Origin: Candidatus Hydrogenedentota bacterium
GTDB taxonomy: Bacteria; UBA8481; J006
Reading direction: 5' to 3'
NCBI GenBank assembly: GCA_003697085.1
Contig: RFFU01000143.1
Location: 1 to 38,867 of the forward strand
DNA: 38,867 bases
The notes under the pieces are model-generated. The model was not told the DNA's origin and did no database searches. It saw only the letters and a list, made by a program, of their open reading frames with translations. Positions 12,593-25,500 of the stretch are shown in pieces. The number at the start of each line of letters is the position of its first letter. Positions within the stretch are counted from its first letter, which is position 1. Position numbers and translations under genes: made by a program.

Positions 12593-12824
12593 GAAGGACG
12601 AGCAGAGGTGCCCCGTTCCGTTTCATTCCTTTGCGCTTCGTGCCGGGAAATATCGTCTGGAGGATAGCCCGCTCTTGCCTTTTGTCCCTCTCCTTGCCCC
12701 TGCCGCTCTCCCCATCCTTTTTCACGGATCGCTGCAATCCGCCACCGCGTGGAATGTTTCGGCCGAGGTTTGTTTGTAGGGTGAGATGGTCATTGGAGGG
12801 GGTGAACAATTATTCGCCCGCGCG

Positions 12825-12854
12825 TTGACGAAAGAGCGGGTCTTCCCGCATAAT
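12825..12854 (+). promoter_or_regulatory. Putative sigma-70 promoter of the AAA-ATPase gene
   Basis: TTGACG at 12825-12830 and CATAAT at 12849-12854 are separated by 18 bases, each matching consensus at 5 of 6 positions. The predicted start near 12861 falls on the GGAG ribosome binding site of the next gene, so the leader would be very short. The 230 bases before it (12593-12824) are CT-rich and hold no gene I can support. Confidence 0.6.
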
Positions 12855-12872
12855 GGCGTGGGAGCCGCGAGA

Positions 12873-14423
12873 ATGAAGAAACTGCCGATCGGAATTCAGA
12901 ACTTCGAGGAAATTGCAACGCGAGACTACATCTACGTCGATAAGACACCGTATCTTCACAAATTGCTTACGGAGGGAAAGGTTTATTTCCTTTCCCGGCC
13001 GCGGCGGTTCGGCAAATCCCTCTTGATCTCCACGCTCGAGAATATCTTTCTCGGGAAGAAACATCTTTTCGAAGGATTGTGGATTCACGACCGATGGGAG
13101 TTCGAGAAACATCCGGTGGTCCGGATCGATATGGTGGCGATTGCGCGGGACAACGGGGAAGTGCTGCGGGAAGGGTTGTTGAACCGGGTAAGGGACGTGG
13201 CTGACGAATACGCGGTGAAGATAAAGCGGAAAGAACACAACGAGGCTTTCCACGAGTTGATCAGGAAGTTGAGCGATCAGGGGAAAGTGGTCGTTTTGAT
13301 CGACGAATACGACAAACCGATCATCGATCACGTGACGCGTCCCGAGATCGCGAAGGAGAACCGGGAGGTCCTGAAGAACTTCTACGGGATACTGAAGGCG
13401 GCGGACGAGTATCTGAAGTTCGTGTTGCTGACGGGGGTCAGCAAGTTCGCGCGAACGAGCATCTTTTCGGATCTGAATAATCTGTACGACATAACCATGA
13501 CGGAAAAATACAACAATCTGCTCGGCTATGAAGAGCAGGACTTGGACCGGTATTTCGGAGAATACCTCGATGGGACAGCGAGGAAATTGGGGATTCGTCG
13601 GGAGGAGTTGCGAGCGAAAATGCGGCACTGGTACAACGGGTACCGTTTTTCGGAGCGGGAGGAGAAGGTTTACAATCCGTTTTCCGTTTTGCAACTCTTC
13701 GGAAACGAGCGCTTCGACAACTATTGGTTCGAAAGCGGGACGCCGACGTTTCTGGTGGAATTGATGCGGGAAAGGAATTTCGACGTGTCTCGCGCGGACG
13801 GGTTGGAGCTGTCTGACGACGATTTCTCGAGATTCGACGTCGAGAAGATATACATTCCGGCGTTGTTGTTCCAGACGGGGTATCTCACGATTGAGGATCA
13901 GATCGTCGAAGGAGAAGATCGGTATTATCGACTCGGATATCCGAATTACGAAGTGGAGAAATCGCTGTTGTCGGAATTGTTGGTAGGGTATGCGGGCGAT
14001 CAGGAAGACGTACGGGAGTCGCGATGGCAGAGAGGGTTGAAGAAGTGTTTGCGGAACGGGGATCTGGACGGCTTTTTTGAACTCGTGAAGGTGGCGTTTT
14101 TGGGAATTCCGTATGAGATCGTGATCAAAAGGGAAGACTATTACAACAGCCTGATGTACCTGTGTCTGAAGTTGGCGGGGCTGGAGGGGGCGTTCGAGGT
14201 GATGACGAACCGGGGGCGGTTGGACTGCGCGCTGGAGTTGGAGGAGAGGATTTACATCTTCGAGTTCAAGATCGATGAAGAGCCGCAGAAGTGTATCGAA
14301 CAGATCCGGGAGAAAGGTTATCCCGAGAAGTACCGGGACCGAGGAAAGCCGATAGACCTGGTGGGGGTTACGTATTCGAGCGAGGAGAAGAACATATCGA
14401 ATTGGAAAGTGGAGCGGTTGTAG
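12873..14423 (+). CDS. AAA-ATPase-like protein with C-terminal PD-(D/E)XK nuclease domain (PF09820/DUF1703 type)
   Basis: The protein has 516 residues. It starts with KKLPIGIQNFEEI and YVDKTPYL, typical of the AAA-ATPase_like family. The P-loop variant is SRPRRFGKS (41-49), and Walker B is VVVLIDEYDKP. A conserved LLTGVSKFARTSIFSDLNNL follows. The C-terminal DUF1703 part holds the nuclease motif D451 in GRLDCALEL and E464-F465-K466 in IFEFKI, so the catalytic residues are present. The family is abundant, often multicopy in a genome, and its role is unclear (defence and mobile-element links have been suggested). The ATG at 12873 fits the promoter and a GGAG 8 bases upstream. The gene is isolated, has its own promoter and is directly followed by palindromic repeats, and its codon use looks less GC-rich than its neighbours; acquisition by transfer is plausible. 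Confidence 0.88.
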   Translation: MKKLPIGIQNFEEIATRDYIYVDKTPYLHKLLTEGKVYFLSRPRRFGKSLLISTLENIFLGKKHLFEGLWIHDRWEFEKHPVVRIDMVAIARDNGEVLREGLLNRVRDVADEYAVKIKRKEHNEAFHELIRKLSDQGKVVVLIDEYDKPIIDHVTRPEIAKENREVLKNFYGILKAADEYLKFVLLTGVSKFARTSIFSDLNNLYDITMTEKYNNLLGYEEQDLDRYFGEYLDGTARKLGIRREELRAKMRHWYNGYRFSEREEKVYNPFSVLQLFGNERFDNYWFESGTPTFLVELMRERNFDVSRADGLELSDDDFSRFDVEKIYIPALLFQTGYLTIEDQIVEGEDRYYRLGYPNYEVEKSLLSELLVGYAGDQEDVRESRWQRGLKKCLRNGDLDGFFELVKVAFLGIPYEIVIKREDYYNSLMYLCLKLAGLEGAFEVMTNRGRLDCALELEERIYIFEFKIDEEPQKCIEQIREKGYPEKYRDRGKPIDLVGVTYSSEEKNISNWKVERL

Positions 14424-17656: not shown

Positions 17657-17717
17657 CTATTCTGATGATTTTAATGGCGTTAGATTGATCTCTTGTTGAA
17701 AAAAGTGAAGTTCCGTG

Positions 17718-17733
17718 CGGCACGCGTTTTGCT
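17718..17733 (+). promoter_or_regulatory. Sigma-54 (-24/-12) promoter of the pilin gene
   Basis: CGGCACG-CGTT-TTGCT matches the RpoN consensus TGGCACG-N4-TTGCW at every position except the first T. The GG and GC doublets are spaced correctly (first G at 17719, G of GC at 17731). Transcription would start near 17744 and give an 85-base leader before the pilin ATG. Pilin genes of several bacteria are known to use this sigma factor. The rest of the 332-base gap after ppdK holds only the palindrome above. Confidence 0.75.
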
Positions 17734-17828
17734 CCTTTACCTATCGACGTTGCGGCGTGGTCTGGATTAAGGGCCGGAACATGAGCCGTGGCGATCGAGG
17801 CGGGAAAGTTAAGTTGAGAGGTGACGGA

Positions 17829-18293
17829 ATGATTCGGTTTCATCGGAAGGGAAAAGGGTTCACACTGATTGAACTCCTGGTTGTTGTGGCGATCATCGGG
17901 ATCTTGGCTTCGATTGCGTTGCCGAAGCTCTTCGCGGCGATCTGCCGCTCGAAGGTCGGCCAGGTTGACGGCACGTTCGGCGCGATCAACGGATCGATGG
18001 CGATGTACTTTGCGGATAATAACGGAACCTATCCGAATAAGACCGCCGCGACGGATGTCACAAGCTCCGCGATGGGTTATCTTATTCCGAAATATCTCCA
18101 AGAGGACCCGACGCCGCCGTGGACCGGGAAATACCGGTATTCGGGCGACGGCTCCGTTTACACCATTTGTGTATCGGTTGACGGTGCGAAAGGCTGTGAC
18201 GGCTCTCCGGGGAGCTCGCCGGCCGACGACTACCGGTATTATTCCAGCACTACCGGGAAGGTCGCTTATACGAATACGAATCCTGGTTGCTGA
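17829..18293 (+). CDS. Type IV pilin / GspG-like major pilin, copy 1
   Basis: The prepilin has 154 residues. A 10-residue basic leader MIRFHRKGKG precedes the cleavage site, followed by FTLIELLVVVAIIGIL with Glu at mature position 5, the class signature for prepilin peptidase. The C-terminal part has PTPPWTGKYRYSGDG and YTICVSVDGAKG, reminiscent of the DPWGNPY...Y...GADG region of GspG pseudopilins, and ends TNTNPGC. Cysteines occur in AAICRSK, TICVS, KGC and at the end. I prefer ATG 17829, which follows GAGAGGTGA; ATG 17781 in frame would give a 26-residue leader. It is about 72% identical to copy 2 by my own gap-free count. No pilus assembly ATPase is in the window. Confidence 0.9.
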   Translation: MIRFHRKGKGFTLIELLVVVAIIGILASIALPKLFAAICRSKVGQVDGTFGAINGSMAMYFADNNGTYPNKTAATDVTSSAMGYLIPKYLQEDPTPPWTGKYRYSGDGSVYTICVSVDGAKGCDGSPGSSPADDYRYYSSTTGKVAYTNTNPGC

Positions 18294-18327
18294 GCGTTTT
18301 TCCTCGAAGCGAGGTTGAAACCGAGGA

Positions 18328-18357
18328 CCCGCCCGCCGGAAGGCGGGCGGGTTTTTT
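18328..18357 (+). terminator. Rho-independent terminator after pilin copy 1
   Basis: A perfect 10-bp stem CCCGCCCGCC / GGCGGGCGGG (18328-18337 and 18342-18351) with loop GGAA is followed by six Ts. It is the clearest intrinsic terminator in the window and implies that pilin copy 2 is expressed from its own promoter or by read-through. Confidence 0.93.
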
Positions 18358-18410
18358 CGTGGATTTCATCTGCGGCGATTCAAAAGAATGACTCTTGGAG
18401 TGAAAATGAA

Positions 18411-18914
18411 ATGATATGGGAAGTAAGAAGGGCGGGAGGAATTCATGACGCGGGGGATGGGAAAAAGGATTCCTTTGGATTTACGCTGATCGAGATTCTC
18501 GTCGTCGTGGCGATCATCGGGATTCTGGCTTCGATTGCCTTGCCGAAACTCTTCGCCGCGATTTGCCGTTCAAAGGTCGGGAAAGTTGATGGTGTCGTCG
18601 GTTCCCTCAACGGGTCCCTCTCGATGTATTTCGCCGACAATGAAGGGTCGTTTCCGGTTCTTTCTTCTTCTACGACGATTAATAGCGCGAGTATGGGATA
18701 TCTCATTCCGAAGTATTTCGAAACGGATCCCATTACTCCTTGGGGCGATCCTTACAGATATACGGGCGACGGAGCCTTCTACACCATCTGCGTCTCCATC
18801 GACGGCGCGAAGGGATGTGACGGAAGTTCCGGAACCTCGCCTCCCGACGACTACCGTTACTATTCTAGCGGAGACGGCAAGATGCAGTCCACGAATACGA
18901 ACCCCGGCTGTTAA
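18411..18914 (+). CDS. Type IV pilin / GspG-like major pilin, copy 2
   Basis: From the in-frame ATG at 18411 the product is 167 residues with an unusually long 23-residue leader that contains several acidic residues, followed by FTLIEILVVVAIIGIL. The mature part is about 72% identical to copy 1, without gaps; differences cluster in a 12-residue stretch after MYFADN.G..P. PITPWGDPYRYTGDG keeps the GspG-like motif. GGAG lies 10 bases before ATG 18411. A better site, GGGAGG with 5-base spacing, precedes ATG 18445, which is in the wrong frame by one base; see the finding on a possible frameshift at 18459-18467. No clear promoter was found between the terminator and the gene. Confidence 0.83.
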   Translation: MIWEVRRAGGIHDAGDGKKDSFGFTLIEILVVVAIIGILASIALPKLFAAICRSKVGKVDGVVGSLNGSLSMYFADNEGSFPVLSSSTTINSASMGYLIPKYFETDPITPWGDPYRYTGDGAFYTICVSIDGAKGCDGSSGTSPPDDYRYYSSGDGKMQSTNTNPGC

Positions 18915-18921
18915 CGCCTCC

Positions 18922-19155
18922 GTCATTCCGAGGCGCTCCTTCGCTGAGGAATCCCCGTCCCCGTTTATCCCTCCGCGATCCCCGCCCTTGCGAGGGTGCG
19001 GGACTTCTCCTCGAACTTCGTCCTTCTCGGGATAACATTCGGGATCTCCTCCACTCCCTTTTCTCCCCGCTTCTCCCTTCTTCCTTCTTCCTTCTTCCTT
19101 TTTCCTTTTGCCTTCTTCCTTCTCCCTTTTGCCTTTTTCCTTTTGCCTTCTTCAA
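18922..19155. repeat. CATTCCGAG repeat pair followed by CT-rich tract
   Basis: A direct copy of the CATTCCGAG repeat (GTCATTCCGAG ... GAGGAATCCCC) lies at 18922-18957 and a degraded inverted copy at about 19000-19042, the same direct-plus-inverted arrangement as at the window start. From about 19060 to 19155 the + strand is a degenerate repeat of CCTTTTGCCTTCTTCC-like units. No gene is supported between the pilin and the following ATG. Confidence 0.8.
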
Positions 19156-19171: not shown

Positions 19172-20758
19172 ATGAAAAGCCTTTCCGTATCTGCTGTTAT
19201 GACCTATCGGCAGTGTCCCGCGCGCTTCTCTTTTCGTTACCGGGATCGTCTGAGTATCCCGGAAAAAGAATCGGGCGATGAGGAAACCTGGCCTGCAATT
19301 CGAACCGTGCTTCAGCAGTGGTTGGCTTTTCCCCAAAGAGACTGGGATTTTCTCGATCGATGTCTCGTCGATCTCTGGCCGTGGAACCGATTTTCGCGGC
19401 GTCGTGATGCCGTCACCACCTACCATCGATCCCGCGCGCTCCTCTGGAAAGCCTTTCCGATCCTCTCGCACCTCGCTCCTTCCGAAACCTTTCGCTACGT
19501 CAATATTTCCTGGGCCGGCGGCTTCTTCCGCGCGCTTATCGATTATGCCAAATGGGACGACAGGGACTTTGTCGTCGGCCGATTTGCCCGCACCCATCCC
19601 GATACGAAGGCGGAGGAGTTTCGAATGAACCTCTATGGGGCTGTGGCGGAGGTGGTTCACGGCCGGCGCCCCACGATGCTTCAAACCTTCGTACTTGGAG
19701 ATGAACCAACGATAATTGACCACCAACGTCTCGAGCCGGCGCGGCTCGAACAGGAAATACGAGCGCTTCGTCTCGAGATAGCCGAGGCCAGGGAATTTCC
19801 GGCGCGACCGGGGGCGCAATGCCGCTTCTGCTCGTACCGATGGATCTGTCCGGAATCGGGAGTTCCGGTTCGCACACAGGACCGCTTCCTCGAACTCTTC
19901 GCCCTCAACAGGGCTCTGACGATTCTCCTGGAGGGCGAGGGAGATTCCGAACGCTTCGGGGGTCTTATGGAGAAAGCGGTAAAGATGCTATCCGAAAGAG
20001 CCGCGGTTCTTCCGATCGAGGAGTGCCGGGGACGAGGATGGCCGGTTCCGCCTGAGGGGACGATTCTTGAATACCTCGGTCCCGATAGGCCTCGGAAGAG
20101 GGAAATGCGTCCTTCGGACAACGTTTCGGAAGAGGTACCGCTCGTCTTCGCGCGAGCGTTCGCGATTGGGACGCGTTGGGTTGCATTTTTTGAGGAAGGC
20201 ACAAGCGGCACGGCGTGCGAAACGCTGCGTCAGGCTTTGGAATTGGCGTGGGAGAGAACGCGATGGGTCTCCCGCGCGCTTCGCGATCCGCTGACGGGTC
20301 TTCTCAATCGCGGCGGATTCGACTCTCTCCTGCGGGAATTGACTCCTCCGTCGTCCTTGATCCTCTTCGATATCGATCGCTTCAAGCGGATCAACGATAC
20401 CTTCGGCCACCAAGCAGGCGACCTCGTTCTCCGCTCCGTCGCTCAAATACTTTCGGAAGTCGCCGAGGCGGTGGGGTTCCGATACGGAGGTGAGGAGATG
20501 GCACTGGTGCTTCCGGGCGCGAGTCTTGAAACGGCTCAACACGCCGCGGAACGAGTGCGAAGAGATGTGGAAGCCTTGCAATTGTCACCTGTGGAGGGAC
20601 GGACCGTTTCCGTGACGATCTCCGCCGGCGTTGCGGAAATCCTCGCCGGAGAATATCCGGAGGATTTCCTGAAACGGGCGGATAAAGCACTCTATTCCGC
20701 GAAGGATGCGGGGCGTAACCGCGTCATCGTCGCCGCGGCGCCCGCCTCGGGTTCCTGA
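19172..20758 (+). CDS. Fusion of Fe-S PD-(D/E)XK (RecB/Cas4-like) domain and GGDEF diguanylate cyclase
   Basis: The 528-residue protein has three parts. Residues 1-230 resemble PDDEXK_1/Cas4/AddB nucleases: SVSAVMTYRQCPARFSFRYR at the start, a core near FRALIDYAKWDD (D124), and the four cysteines C15, C217, C220, C226 spaced C-x201-C-x2-C-x5-C, the Fe-S cluster pattern. The catalytic D/E-x-K step appears as V135-G136-R137-F138, so nuclease activity is probably lost. Residues about 235-365 look GAF-like (weak). Residues 371-520 are a GGDEF domain with DPLTGLLNR, FDIDRFKRINDTFGH, RYGGEEM (437-443) and ALYSAKDAGRNRV; no RxxD inhibitory site is visible. It should make c-di-GMP. There is no evident ribosome binding site at the ATG. 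The next gene begins immediately after its stop. Confidence 0.85.
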   Translation: MKSLSVSAVMTYRQCPARFSFRYRDRLSIPEKESGDEETWPAIRTVLQQWLAFPQRDWDFLDRCLVDLWPWNRFSRRRDAVTTYHRSRALLWKAFPILSHLAPSETFRYVNISWAGGFFRALIDYAKWDDRDFVVGRFARTHPDTKAEEFRMNLYGAVAEVVHGRRPTMLQTFVLGDEPTIIDHQRLEPARLEQEIRALRLEIAEAREFPARPGAQCRFCSYRWICPESGVPVRTQDRFLELFALNRALTILLEGEGDSERFGGLMEKAVKMLSERAAVLPIEECRGRGWPVPPEGTILEYLGPDRPRKREMRPSDNVSEEVPLVFARAFAIGTRWVAFFEEGTSGTACETLRQALELAWERTRWVSRALRDPLTGLLNRGGFDSLLRELTPPSSLILFDIDRFKRINDTFGHQAGDLVLRSVAQILSEVAEAVGFRYGGEEMALVLPGASLETAQHAAERVRRDVEALQLSPVEGRTVSVTISAGVAEILAGEYPEDFLKRADKALYSAKDAGRNRVIVAAAPASGS

Positions 20759-22600
20759 ATGGGATTCTCCTTCTCCCCGTCGGATCGCCGGCCCTCCGGC
20801 TTCTCCCGCCGCTTCAGAGTGCCTTTACCGGTCTTGGCAGAGATTTTGTTGGTTCTGTACACCTCTCTCTTCGGGATCCGCGTAGCGCCGGTGTTGGCGG
20901 CGTTTTTTGGAGCCGCGGGGCTTCTTATCGCCGGCATCGTTTCCGTTGCCTGGACTCTTTCCCTTATCCTTCTCGCGATCATCCTTGCCGCAACGCTGGC
21001 GATCACCTTGACTTCGGGGAGTGCTCCGGGCCCGGCCATGCATTCAGCGGGGGTGCTTGCGGCCTTCTTTGCCTGGGCGGTGGTCGGACACGCCGCCGCC
21101 TGCTCCGAGGCGAAAGAACGGGCGGCGGAGAGGAGAGAGGGAGAGAGAGGATCGGAAGAATGGTGGGAGAGAATTCCCGGGTTTTTCGCCTTCATTGCGG
21201 CTTTTCTTCTCGCGCTTCCCGCTCTTCTCCAAAGGCTGCTTCGGAATGAGCCGCCGCACTTCTGGTTCGTCTCGTCGATCGACTTCGCCATCGCCGTTCT
21301 TCTTCTCTCGGCCTCGGCCTATTGTTCTTTCCGGGGGCGCTTTCGCCGGTTTCGGCCGTTTCTCGTTTTTCCCGTCGTCGCGATTGCAACGGCTTCCGCC
21401 TCGCGCGCTGTCCTCCTTTCCGCCGCCGCGTTTCTCCTGATCATTTTCGCGAAAGTCTTCCGGAAACGTGCCCGGGCGACGGCGCTTCTGGTGACGATTT
21501 TGCTTTTGTCCGGTGCCGCGTTCTTCACCATTCAAAGAATCCGTTCCGACCCGCTGGCCTGGAACCGCGCGCGCATCTATGTCGCAGCGTTGAACGGCCT
21601 TCGCGAGAGACCTTGGTTCGGATGGGGTTACGGAGCCTTCGATTCCGTCGGCCGGCGTTTTCTTCTTCAGGATCCGACGCCGATTCACCGCGTTCGCTAC
21701 CCCGTTTACGTCCACTCCGAACCGCTCGAGCTTCTCTTCGAAACCGGAATCCTCGGTTTCTCGGCCTGGTTCGCGCTGGGACTCTCGTGGCTTCTCGCGA
21801 TCGCCAGGAAGAACCGTGGCGAACTCGTCGTGCCGGCGGTCCTCTTCTTTCCGGCTCTCTTTTACTTCCCCTTCCGTCTCGTCCTCCCCCTCTTCTTCCT
21901 CGGGTTCTTTCTCGGGCGCGCATTACCCGTGTCTGCGCCGCCCCGCAAGCCTGGCCTCGTGAGGAAGACGCTTTGCTTTGCAGCCTCGATCCTGATGGCG
22001 ATCTATGGTCTTGGTTTGGCCTCGCGCAATCCTCGTTTCGCTCCCTTCGCCGCTCCCCTCTGGCTCGAATCTTCCGCCGAAGAGACGGTTCTGATTCGGA
22101 TCAAGAACCTCGAGCCGTTCCGTCCGGAGTTTTCTTACGACGAAGGAATTTACGCCGCGCGCCACGGCTCGATCGGCGGCGCGATTCGAGGAATGGAACG
22201 CGCCGCTGATCTGGCCCCGGCGGAAGCCCAGTGGCACTTCGAGACGGCGCGGGCGTGGGCCTGGTACGCCGCCCGCTATAAGGATAGAATGCGGAAATGG
22301 TATGGTTGGAAGCGAGCGTGGGAAGAGGTCTCGTTCATTCGCGTCCTCGAGCCGTTACATCTCGGAGCCTTGGCCGCGTTGGGCGACACGATCGAGTTGA
22401 GGTGGCGCGCTGTTGAACTCGAACGTCTTGCCCGGAGGAAAGAGCCGATCGGAAACATTCGTGCCATGCGTCCGCGTCCTCTCGACCTCCCCGCTCCTTT
22501 GCCGGAACTTCTTCGTTCCTTCTCCGAGGAAGACCCCGAATCGAGGGACTCAAACCTTTCAAGAAACGGTGACGCCGCGGAGGACGAAATGGAAAAGTGA
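20759..22600 (+). CDS. O-antigen ligase/polymerase-like membrane protein with C-terminal TPR-like region
   Basis: The protein has 613 residues and about ten hydrophobic segments between 20 and 420. The loop at about 281-345 holds RERPWFGWGYGAFDSVG, then HSEPLELLFETGILGF, which is the Wzy_C signature of the O-antigen ligase family (WaaL, Wzy, also PglL-type glycosyltransferases). The histidine in VHSEPLE is the conserved one. Residues about 455-560 look like helical TPR repeats (YAARHGSIGGAIRGMERAADLAP). Possible roles are joining glycan to lipid A, polymerising a surface polysaccharide, or glycosylating the neighbouring pilins; the sequence cannot decide. The ATG abuts the stop of the preceding gene. 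Confidence 0.78.
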   Translation: MGFSFSPSDRRPSGFSRRFRVPLPVLAEILLVLYTSLFGIRVAPVLAAFFGAAGLLIAGIVSVAWTLSLILLAIILAATLAITLTSGSAPGPAMHSAGVLAAFFAWAVVGHAAACSEAKERAAERREGERGSEEWWERIPGFFAFIAAFLLALPALLQRLLRNEPPHFWFVSSIDFAIAVLLLSASAYCSFRGRFRRFRPFLVFPVVAIATASASRAVLLSAAAFLLIIFAKVFRKRARATALLVTILLLSGAAFFTIQRIRSDPLAWNRARIYVAALNGLRERPWFGWGYGAFDSVGRRFLLQDPTPIHRVRYPVYVHSEPLELLFETGILGFSAWFALGLSWLLAIARKNRGELVVPAVLFFPALFYFPFRLVLPLFFLGFFLGRALPVSAPPRKPGLVRKTLCFAASILMAIYGLGLASRNPRFAPFAAPLWLESSAEETVLIRIKNLEPFRPEFSYDEGIYAARHGSIGGAIRGMERAADLAPAEAQWHFETARAWAWYAARYKDRMRKWYGWKRAWEEVSFIRVLEPLHLGALAALGDTIELRWRAVELERLARRKEPIGNIRAMRPRPLDLPAPLPELLRSFSEEDPESRDSNLSRNGDAAEDEMEK

Positions 22601-23116
22601 GGAGAAAAGGAGAGGTCGTTTCAAGAAAAGTGGGGGAAGCGAAAGAAAAAATGAACGCGATCCGCTCGATCCCGGAGGGGTCCATGGCGAAAAGTGGGCA
22701 CTTTGTGCCAAACGGGGCCTTCTCCTCCGGCAAGCCACGTCTCAATTCAAACCATTTAAAGGAAGCGCAGACTCTCCAGTCCGCGGCGGAATCCGGGAGC
22801 GCAGGTCTGCCTGCCGGAAGGCAGGCATCTTGCCTGCAGGTAACTGTTCTCTTCCGCAGGTTAGAGAACCAGCGCCCCATTTTCGCCGCGTTATGGAGCG
22901 CAGACTCTCCAGTCTGCGGAGTTATGGCAGGAAAACAGAGTTGAACAACAAGCATCAGCGGTTCTGCATGTCAAAATTATTGCGTTCGTCTGCCCATAAT
23001 TTGCCATCTACCCATTCCGGAGTGAATGCGGTGTTGCTCTCTCTTGTTTCAAAACGCGCCGCGGTTGGAGGGTTTGGAAACGGATCGGGTGGAAATTTTT
23101 CTCGGAAGGAGTCGCA
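22601..23116. repeat. Intergenic region with CTCC-loop hairpin repeats
   Basis: I find no gene in these 516 bases. Hairpins of one family lie at 22766-22785 (stem with one mismatch) and 22899-22918 (perfect 8-bp stem CGCAGACT/AGTCTGCG, loop CTCC). Between them is a GC-rich stretch with CTGCCGGAAGGCAG and repeated GCAGG(T/C)A motifs (22801-22870). The last 100 bases carry GGAAGGAG, the ribosome binding site of the next gene; the promoter was not identified. Confidence 0.8.
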
Positions 23117-24115
23117 ATGACCCGCCTGAAGACCTTTCTTTTGGCGGCGATCCTGGCTGTCTTCTGCTTCGTTCTCGTCTCCTTCTTCTTTCTGGCCACG
23201 GCCGCGGAATGGAACCCGATAATGAAAGGGCGAGCGTTGGCGGGGCTCGGGGGTCTTCTCCTGCTCGTCTTCTTTCTCGCTTTTCTTCCGCTGTTCCAGA
23301 AACTGAGGCGCTTGGAAGCGGAGGAAGGCGAGATAGCGCGGGCGATCCTCCAGGATCGCGTTCCGGGATCGAAAATACGATTTCTCGAGGGGATCGCTAC
23401 GGCGTGGCGGAACACGCGGGAAACGCAACTGCGTCGTAGCGAGGAACGGGAAGCAACCGTGAAGAGAAATCGGCTCGAGTTACGTTTGGCGCGGGCCGGA
23501 ATGGTTTCAGCGGAGTTGACACACGAGATGCGAACCCCGCTGACGGTCATTCGTGGCCGCGCGGAGCTTATTCTCGAAAGTATCCATCGAGGAGAAACGC
23601 CCTCGGAGGAGGATGCGAGGGAAATCCTGGAGCAATCGAGACTCTGCGGCGAACTGACCGAGGCGCTCCTTCATTTTGTCCGTGAGGAAAAGATAGAGAA
23701 GGCCGCGGTCCGTTTCGACTCTCTTTCGATCGGAGCGCAACGGGCGGAGGTGGTCACGAATTGGGGAAGAGAGGCGGAGGCCGTCATCGGCGATCGCCGC
23801 CTTCTCGAACTCGTCTTCCGGAATCTCGTTCGGAATGCCGAGGAAGCCGGAGCGAAGAGGATCGTGATCCAATCGGAGCGGGCGGCGGATTGCGTCCGAA
23901 TTTTCATCCGCGACGACGGGCGGGGGATTTCCGCGGAGGTCAAGAAGACGCTCTTCGAGCCGTTCACGAGCGGCCGGAGCGGCGGTACGGGTTTGGGACT
24001 GGCGATCTCCCGCGACATCCTGCGGGCGCACGGCGGCGAAATTACGGCGACGAACCGGCCCGAGGGAGGCGCGGAATTTCAGTTGATTCTTCCGAGGAAG
24101 GGAGGAGAAGCGTGA
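23117..24115 (+). CDS. Membrane histidine kinase of a sigma-54 two-component system
   Basis: The 332-residue kinase has two transmembrane helices (about 6-28 and 40-60) with almost no periplasmic domain between them, so it probably senses the membrane or an intracellular signal. HisKA has H136 in AELTHEMRTPLTVIRG. The ATPase domain shows the N box FRNLVRNAEEAG, G1 DDGRGI, F box LFEPFTSG and G2 GGTGLGLAI. The ATG follows GGAAGGAG. The stop overlaps the GTG of the response regulator (GTGA). It lacks the PAS domain and six helices of PilS. Its target is expected to be the adjacent regulator. Confidence 0.92.
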   Translation: MTRLKTFLLAAILAVFCFVLVSFFFLATAAEWNPIMKGRALAGLGGLLLLVFFLAFLPLFQKLRRLEAEEGEIARAILQDRVPGSKIRFLEGIATAWRNTRETQLRRSEEREATVKRNRLELRLARAGMVSAELTHEMRTPLTVIRGRAELILESIHRGETPSEEDAREILEQSRLCGELTEALLHFVREEKIEKAAVRFDSLSIGAQRAEVVTNWGREAEAVIGDRRLLELVFRNLVRNAEEAGAKRIVIQSERAADCVRIFIRDDGRGISAEVKKTLFEPFTSGRSGGTGLGLAISRDILRAHGGEITATNRPEGGAEFQLILPRKGGEA

Positions 24116-25500
24116 ACGCCGAAGAAAATTTGCCGGAGGTTTCCGGAACGATCCTCGTTGTGGATGACGAGGAATCCGTCAGGAAACTCGTCGCGCGTGC
24201 CCTCCAGGGACGCGATCTGCTCTTTGCCGGGACCGCGGAGGAAGCGCGGGAGAAATATCCTCGCGCCGACGTTGTGCTCCTCGATCTCAAACTCGGTGAC
24301 GCCTCGGGGATGGATTTGCTGGAGGAGTGGAGTGCGGAGGAACCGCGAAAGCCGGTTATCATTATGACCGCTATGGCCTCGATCTCCTCCGCCGTGGAGG
24401 CAATGAAGAAAGGGGCTCGCGATTACCTCCAGAAGCCCTTTCCCTCCCTCGATGAACTTCGCCTGGCGGTGGATCGAGCGGTTGCGGAACGCCGCCTTGA
24501 ACTCGAAAACATCCGCCTCAGGGAACTTCTCGTCGAGCAGGACCGATTCGAGGAGATGATCGGCGCCAGTCCCGCGATGCGCCGCATCTATGAAATGGTT
24601 GACCGCGTCGCCGCTACGAATGCCACGATTTTGATCACAGGGGAGAGCGGAACCGGAAAGGAACTGGTCGCTCGGGCGATTCATCGGAGAAGCGATCGAA
24701 GAAAGAAACCCTTCGTCGAGATCAATTGTGCAGCGATTCCCCACGAACTTCTCGAGAGCGAGCTCTTTGGTCATGAGCGCGGGGCTTTCACCGGCGCGGT
24801 CCGTCGAAAACAGGGGCTTTTGGAACGCGCAAACGGCGGGACGGTTTTTCTGGACGAGATTGGAGAAATGCCGTTGGACCTTCAGGCGAAACTTCTTCGC
24901 GTGATGGATTCCCGCGGTTTCCTTCGGGTCGGAGGAACAGATCTCATCACGGTGAATCTGCGTTTCATTGCGGCCACGAATCGCAATCTTGAGACCGCCG
25001 TCGCGCGGAAACGTTTCCGTGAAGATCTCTTCTACCGATTGGCCGTGATTACGATCGATCTTCCTCCGCTTCGAAAGCGAAAGGGAGACATCCCGTTGCT
25101 CCTGGCGGAGTTTCTCCCCGGGGTTGAGATCGAGCCGGAGGCGCTGGAACTTCTCAAGAGATACCCGTGGCCCGGAAACATTCGCGAACTGAAGAATATC
25201 GCCGAGCGAATCAAGATTCTCGATAGAACAACCGTCGGGCCGGACGATCTCCCGCAGGCGATCCGGGGAGAGTCACGGGAGAAGGCCGGATTGGGGGATG
25301 CCGGCTATGCGGAGGAAAAGGACCTTCCGGCTCGGTTGCGGGAGTTCGAGAAAGGGATATTGGAGGAGGCGTTGGCGCGGGAGAGGGGATCGCGGGCCCG
25401 CGCTGCCAGGCGATTGGGGATCACCCGCCAATCCCTTCAATACAAGTTGGAAAAGTACGGCCTGTTGGAGGAGCGGAAGGAGTCGGATCGAAAGGATTAG
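24112..25500 (+). CDS. NtrC-family sigma-54-dependent response regulator
   Basis: The 462-residue protein has a receiver (about 12-125) with the acidic pair in VVDDE, phosphoacceptor D58 in LLDLK and K108 in QKPF. The AAA+ domain has GESGTGKE (177-184) and GAFTGA (224-229), the loop that contacts sigma-54, followed by GTVFLDEIGEMP and RFREDLFYRL. A Fis-type helix-turn-helix ends the protein (ARAARRLGITRQSLQYKL). It should activate -24/-12 promoters; one is found at the pilin gene 6.4 kb upstream. The GTG start has GGGAGGAG upstream. It is translationally coupled to the kinase. Confidence 0.95.
   Translation: MNAEENLPEVSGTILVVDDEESVRKLVARALQGRDLLFAGTAEEAREKYPRADVVLLDLKLGDASGMDLLEEWSAEEPRKPVIIMTAMASISSAVEAMKKGARDYLQKPFPSLDELRLAVDRAVAERRLELENIRLRELLVEQDRFEEMIGASPAMRRIYEMVDRVAATNATILITGESGTGKELVARAIHRRSDRRKKPFVEINCAAIPHELLESELFGHERGAFTGAVRRKQGLLERANGGTVFLDEIGEMPLDLQAKLLRVMDSRGFLRVGGTDLITVNLRFIAATNRNLETAVARKRFREDLFYRLAVITIDLPPLRKRKGDIPLLLAEFLPGVEIEPEALELLKRYPWPGNIRELKNIAERIKILDRTTVGPDDLPQAIRGESREKAGLGDAGYAEEKDLPARLREFEKGILEEALARERGSRARAARRLGITRQSLQYKLEKYGLLEERKESDRKD

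Follow-up and report, generated by a model that had tools for sequence, protein, structure and literature searches.

A candidate nuclease-fold input domain joined to a GAF-like domain and a diguanylate cyclase in Candidatus Hydrogenedentota

A gene found in the 38,867-nucleotide stretch of Candidatus Hydrogenedentota DNA analyzed here (the window) raises the question of what the fold of a DNA nuclease does at the front of a diguanylate cyclase. Known cyclases producing c-di-GMP respond to light, gas, redox or small-molecule inputs, and a GAF domain followed by GGDEF is a standard input-output layout. A preliminary description of this gene, made from the sequence, had read it as a degenerate Fe-S nuclease domain, thought to bind DNA/RNA ends or to sense redox state, serving as the input of an intact cyclase, a design for which it knew no described sensor. 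This still stands within the open-access literature, the only one searched, where no description of a nuclease-GAF-GGDEF fusion was found. The protein belongs to a known kind, the sensor-GGDEF proteins, and its new element is the nuclease-fold input. Judging from its residues, this fold probably does not cut and serves as input to an active cyclase; among the candidate ligands, nucleic acid ranks as the most likely, followed by the Fe-S cluster and then by a ligand of the GAF-like domain.

The fusion gene, its sibling and its occurrence

The open reading frame encodes 528 amino acids, and its coordinates together with the motifs YRQCPARF, FVVGRF and RYGGEEM were all verified. The working architecture is an Fe-S PD-(D/E)XK domain, a GAF-like domain, an exit helix and a GGDEF domain, located as follows:

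19172-20758, plus strand: fusion gene, Fe-S PD-(D/E)XK-like, GAF-like and GGDEF, 528 aa (open reading frame, Pfam, full-length homologue)
19178-19852, plus strand: PDDEXK_1/Cas4-AddB-type PD-(D/E)XK domain, residues 3-227, catalytically degenerate (Pfam)
19214-19216, plus strand: Cys15, predicted Fe-S ligand
19820-19849, plus strand: C217-x2-C220-x5-C226, predicted Fe-S ligands
19874-20266, plus strand: middle domain, residues 235-365, GAF-like, ending in a helix into GGDEF (sibling model; GAF and GAF_2 matches in the related proteins of G394 and G391)
20276-20722, plus strand: GGDEF diguanylate cyclase domain without I-site, GGEEM at 20486-20500 (Pfam; alignment with PleD, PDB 1w25)

The gene is present once in the 3.2-Mb draft genome of the host, whose 145 contigs leave some room for two genes joined by an assembly or gene-calling artefact, which the preliminary description had named as a way in which its reading might fail. 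This explanation deserves practically no credence, since the fusion recurs in independent genomes. The same full-length architecture was present in another family of the order, followed by the same three downstream genes, and again in two further phyla; the fused gene is genuine and no assembly error.

The nearest of these relatives, referred to here as the sibling, comes from Candidatus Hydrogenedentes bacterium CG07_land_8_20_14_0_80_42_17 (contig PEWQ01000130.1; Ca. Hydrogenedentota according to NCBI), the sole other genome of the phylum examined, which belongs to the same order but to another family. Its protein of 516 aa has an identical domain architecture (Pfam PDDEXK_1 with E 3.3e-19 and GGDEF with E 1.3e-31) and is 32% identical to the window protein over the full length. 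The gene order of fusion, Wzy_C, histidine kinase and NtrC-type regulator is conserved between the two loci as a conserved operon, with these genes following the fusion in the window:

20759-22600, plus strand: Wzy_C (O-antigen ligase/polymerase) protein, whose start codon abuts the fusion stop (Pfam; 32% identity to the sibling neighbour)
23117-24115, plus strand: histidine kinase with HisKA and HATPase_c (Pfam; conserved neighbour, 32% identity)
24112-25500, plus strand: NtrC-type response regulator, whose GTG start overlaps the kinase stop codon (conserved neighbour, 58% identity)

The genomic context emphasized earlier consisted of pilins and a polysaccharide gene, and only the second half of it held: the two pilin-like genes upstream had no counterpart beside the fusion in the sibling locus, while Wzy_C was conserved, together with the kinase and the regulator. 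Within this phylum, the conserved Wzy_C gene points to surface polysaccharide as an output.

Several local features of the window were recorded along the way. The upstream pair at 17715-18290 and 18315-18911 (plus strand) consists of type IV pilin-like genes in tandem, whose products carry N_methyl motifs and are almost the same at the N-terminus, and a CTT/CCTTTT-rich tandem repeat occupies 19070-19153, just 5' of the fusion start (12 copies of a 7-mer, also readable as 2.2 copies of a 35-mer). The Wzy_C and kinase genes are separated by 517 bases (22600-23117) that contain a 23-base direct repeat and the near-palindrome GCCTGCCGGAAGGCAG; because in the sibling these two genes overlap without any gap, the spacer may have arisen by insertion of a short repeat element. 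A second PD-(D/E)XK protein of the window, encoded at 12786-14420 (plus strand) with AAA-ATPase_like and PDDEXK_9 domains, is unrelated to the fusion.

Beyond the phylum, a two-sequence profile applied to 386 genomes led to two other small phyla with fusions, and with a six-sequence profile the total rose to eleven proteins in three phyla: two from Hydrogenedentota, six from the phylum of G106, where six of seven genomes carried the fusion, and three from the phylum of G213 (3 of 16 genomes). The fusion architecture is therefore wider than its own lineage, and nine of its members are new. Two of the eleven end at contig ends, G386 lacking the GGDEF part and G388 the C-terminus. The members from the G106 and G213 phyla had the same domain order and the same four cysteines as the window protein.

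Full-length matches occurred only in these three phyla among 385 genomes drawn from many lineages. At E < 1e-70, a level below which distant fusions may score, none was present in 784 genomes of two larger phyla, nor in two genomes of the phylum of G129. In a protein-level scan of 84,980 genomes the window protein alone gave no match, and a two-row profile (window and sibling) retrieved the sibling only. The distribution looks narrow, with the large phyla sampled and divergent fusions expected to score lower. Nuclease and GGDEF domains encoded by separate adjacent genes were not seen in the loci examined, and a viral-contig match (L137) across residues 225-519 was rejected as a membrane GGDEF protein only.

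Properties of the three domains

PDDEXK_1 (Pfam PF12705) matched residues 3-227 of the window protein with E 2.3e-12, the isolated domain scoring 51.9 bits at a cutoff of 22. Sequence profiles of the nuclease part matched the ACE1 and AdnAB chains in PDB, and AddB and Cas4 weakly. The best structural matches of the low-confidence window-protein model (mean pLDDT 46.7) were Cas4 SSO0001 (Z 8.4), EXO5 and AddA, and the sibling model, whose pLDDT was higher (59.4 overall and about 65-77 in the core), matched AdnA (Z 10.8) and ACE1 (Z 10.0) with its residues 11-213. The Fe-S PD-(D/E)XK fold proposed earlier is thus backed by Pfam, profile matches and structural neighbours, the last of these through models of low confidence. 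Membership in CRISPR Cas4 failed, the NCBIfam cas4 model TIGR00372 giving 14.5-16.5 bits against a cutoff of 65.

The cysteine pattern C15 ... C217-x2-C220-x5-C226 and the YRQCPARF start were both present as previously described, and the four predicted cluster ligands were invariant in all eleven aligned fusions. The N-terminal domains of window and sibling were 27% identical across 218 positions; taken with the invariant cysteines and a motif-II Asp also kept in 11/11, this identity argues that the window domain is under constraint. Such cysteine retention despite the catalytic loss in the own lineage might mean that sensing resides in the Fe-S cluster, whose oxidation or loss (through oxygen, NO or iron supply) would change the N-terminal domain and switch the cyclase, with the nuclease fold serving only as scaffold. 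Other Fe-S regulators are well known to be controlled through their clusters, but in the Fe-S PD-(D/E)XK nucleases the cluster is mainly structural, and the cysteines were equally conserved in the fusions with an intact active site, so that their conservation is not specific to redox sensing. We regard a cluster sensor as quite unlikely.

The nuclease active site of the window protein was found to be degenerate, as had been claimed, and more extensively so, with the motif-I His lost as well:

19301-19303, plus strand: Arg44 at the position of the motif-I His (His in 10/11 fusions)
19541-19543, plus strand: Asp124, the retained motif-II Asp
19580-19588, plus strand: R137-F138-A139 where the catalytic D/E-x-K is expected (ungapped alignment with E-Y-H of the sibling; D-Y-K in the nine others)

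The preliminary description had placed V-G-R-F at the catalytic step; FVVGRF is indeed there, and the equivalent of the motif was refined to R137-F-A139, the best reading in the ungapped alignment with the sibling, because between Asp124 and Tyr155 the aligned residues are spaced as they are in the sibling. A gapped alignment gives D132-F-V134 instead, with no lysine, and neither version is an acid-x-Lys. Three of the four key residues (His, Asp/Glu and Lys) are missing by these alignments. The sibling retained His and Asp and has E-Y-H (E-x-H) at the D-x-K step, and in the alignment of eleven the catalytic His, Asp and D-x-K were all intact in the nine fusions of the other two phyla (H-D-D-x-K). 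The catalytic loss is thus confined to the own phylum and is graded there, from H-D-E-x-H in the sibling to a predicted dead site in the window, which makes a degenerate starting domain unlikely. In this respect the earlier proposal that an already degenerate fold was recruited as input was not supported: the fusion probably did not start from the degenerate form, and the decay came after it or in any case is no family trait. The nuclease may be active in the other two phyla.

It could be supposed that the window domain also still cuts, through a rearranged site involving, for instance, D132 or D144-x-K146, with c-di-GMP or GTP at the GGDEF domain controlling cutting. The kept Asp124, a literal D-T-K at 144-146 and the intact sites in two other phyla, where a cutting form probably exists, would fit such a nuclease. 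However, both the motif-I His and the D/E-x-K of the strand are gone; D144-T-K146 lies off the strand, where the following helix begins in the low-confidence model, and was aligned with the motif in none of the alignments made; and the intact half of the protein is GGDEF. A rearranged nuclease is for these reasons highly improbable.

The GGDEF domain matched Pfam at residues 369-517 with E 7.5e-38, and in the alignment with PleD all known catalytic positions were kept (D400, N408, D417, E441/E442, K511 and R515), the metal- and GTP-binding roles of these residues in PleD being established. GGEEM deviates from GG(D/E)EF at the final position. The RxxD I-site is absent upstream of it, V-A-E-A standing at the position of RxxD in PleD, and both Pfam and PleD alignment agree with the complete GGDEF domain (RYGGEEM) without RxxD of the preliminary description. 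RxxD was present in the G213 group and in G388. Since the host genome contained 17 GGDEF and nine PilZ matches, a c-di-GMP network exists in it.

Residues 235-365 of the window protein had no sequence-family (Pfam) match. The middle domain was recognized as GAF by sequence only in the G213 group (GAF/GAF_2 matches in G394 and G391), and residues 240-364 of the sibling model matched GAF structures such as DosP and phytochromes with Z of about 6-9. These matches, together with the heavily decayed active site of the own lineage, can be read as a nuclease fold left as a relic for dimerization or partner binding only, with the GAF-like domain sensing a small ligand. But conservation between the phyla is lowest in the middle (11-22% identity), which is shortened outside the G213 group, and the N-terminal domain retains its cysteines and fold signature; this explanation therefore appears unlikely.

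A proposed role of the nuclease fold as sensory input

With an intact GGDEF domain beside a decayed nuclease site, the cyclase is left as the sole possible enzymatic output in the window lineage, and the constraint on the N-terminal domain leads to a direct reading of this domain as the input. Its leading structural neighbours (AdnA, ACE1/Cas4, AddB, Dna2 and EXO5) are DNA nucleases acting on ends or single strands, and because such relatives bind DNA ends or single strands, nucleic acid becomes the most likely ligand. That nucleic acid is the signal has, in our estimate, slightly less than an even chance, and the same tentative standing is given to the protein as a whole being a soluble sensor diguanylate cyclase which converts the binding of nucleic-acid ends or fragments into c-di-GMP.

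In this sensor, the N-terminal Fe-S fold would have lost cutting, kept its form with the four cysteines holding a cluster, and would still bind a nucleic-acid end or fragment. Binding would alter the domain, and the change would be relayed through the GAF-like domain and the exit helix, setting the GGDEF dimer to produce c-di-GMP without I-site feedback. The product would act via PilZ-type receptors, with surface polysaccharide (from the adjacent Wzy_C) as the likely and pili as a possible output. Against this sensor reading, the sensor could be the GAF-like domain by itself, and in the other phyla an intact nuclease could be the output regulated by the cyclase half, which makes the ancestral direction of signalling uncertain. 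A broader version, in which the fusions form a family of DNA-end-sensing cyclases whose Cas4/AddB-like domain reads broken or single-stranded DNA, with two phyla also processing the ends and the window protein being a pure reader, is doubtful.

With Cas4, ACE1, AddB, AdnA, Dna2 and EXO5 the window protein has in common the fold, the N-terminal Cys with the C-terminal C-x2-C-x5-C and the motif-II Asp. In contrast to the Fe-S PD-(D/E)XK nucleases, it lacks the motif-I His, D/E-x-K and a helicase domain, and adds the GAF-like and GGDEF domains. The succession of input domain, GAF or GAF-like domain, exit helix and GGDEF is shared with sensor-GAF-GGDEF cyclases, such as the phytochrome-linked ones (PDB 5lly), whereas the input in the window protein has the fold of a DNA nuclease. 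If the reading of DNA ends is true, a likeness exists to DisA, the DNA-integrity scanning diadenylate cyclase, in coupling the state of DNA to cyclic dinucleotide synthesis. DisA makes c-di-AMP by its DAC domain and binds DNA by an HhH domain; the two proteins belong to different families, and no DAC (DisA_N) domain was matched in the window protein in Pfam or NCBIfam scans. Sensing of DNA ends would let DNA damage, DNA uptake or phage attack act directly on the choice between a free and a surface-attached life, as a c-di-GMP counterpart of what DisA is for c-di-AMP. For the question of cutting versus binding, the fusions offer a natural series of intact (two phyla), H-D-E-x-H (sibling) and apparently dead (window) sites.

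Origin of the fusion and its neighbours in other phyla

In the nuclease tree, window and sibling were paired firmly (100/97) and this pair joined five proteins of the G106 phylum weakly (79/92), while the G213 group was placed with the standalone nuclease of G129. A single clade of all fusions was not clearly rejected (p 0.078, and 0.047 without G388), and the GGDEF tree lacked resolution for the relationships of the fusions; one origin with later losses and two or three separate origins are both possible. A joint alignment that mixed nucleases with GGDEF rows came out false and was discarded. The standalone Fe-S nuclease of G129 (L027:1447-2232, minus strand) was the closest non-fused relative by profile score, with 167.7 bits.

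The gene neighbours of the fusions differed between the phyla and thus indicate no shared pathway. They included SurA/PpiC, CheC, Memo and DUF6754 in the G106 phylum, and YceG, TldD/PmbA and a CHASE2 cyclase in G213. The fusion of the G106 phylum comes directly after a CheC-like phosphatase gene and a Memo-family gene (L033:2644-4059), an order apparently kept in G242, G370 and G387. In G213, the fusion is followed by an operon-like stretch with TldD/PmbA and a CHASE2-adenylate/guanylate cyclase (L036:2705-4609, minus strand), bringing two second-messenger enzymes close together.
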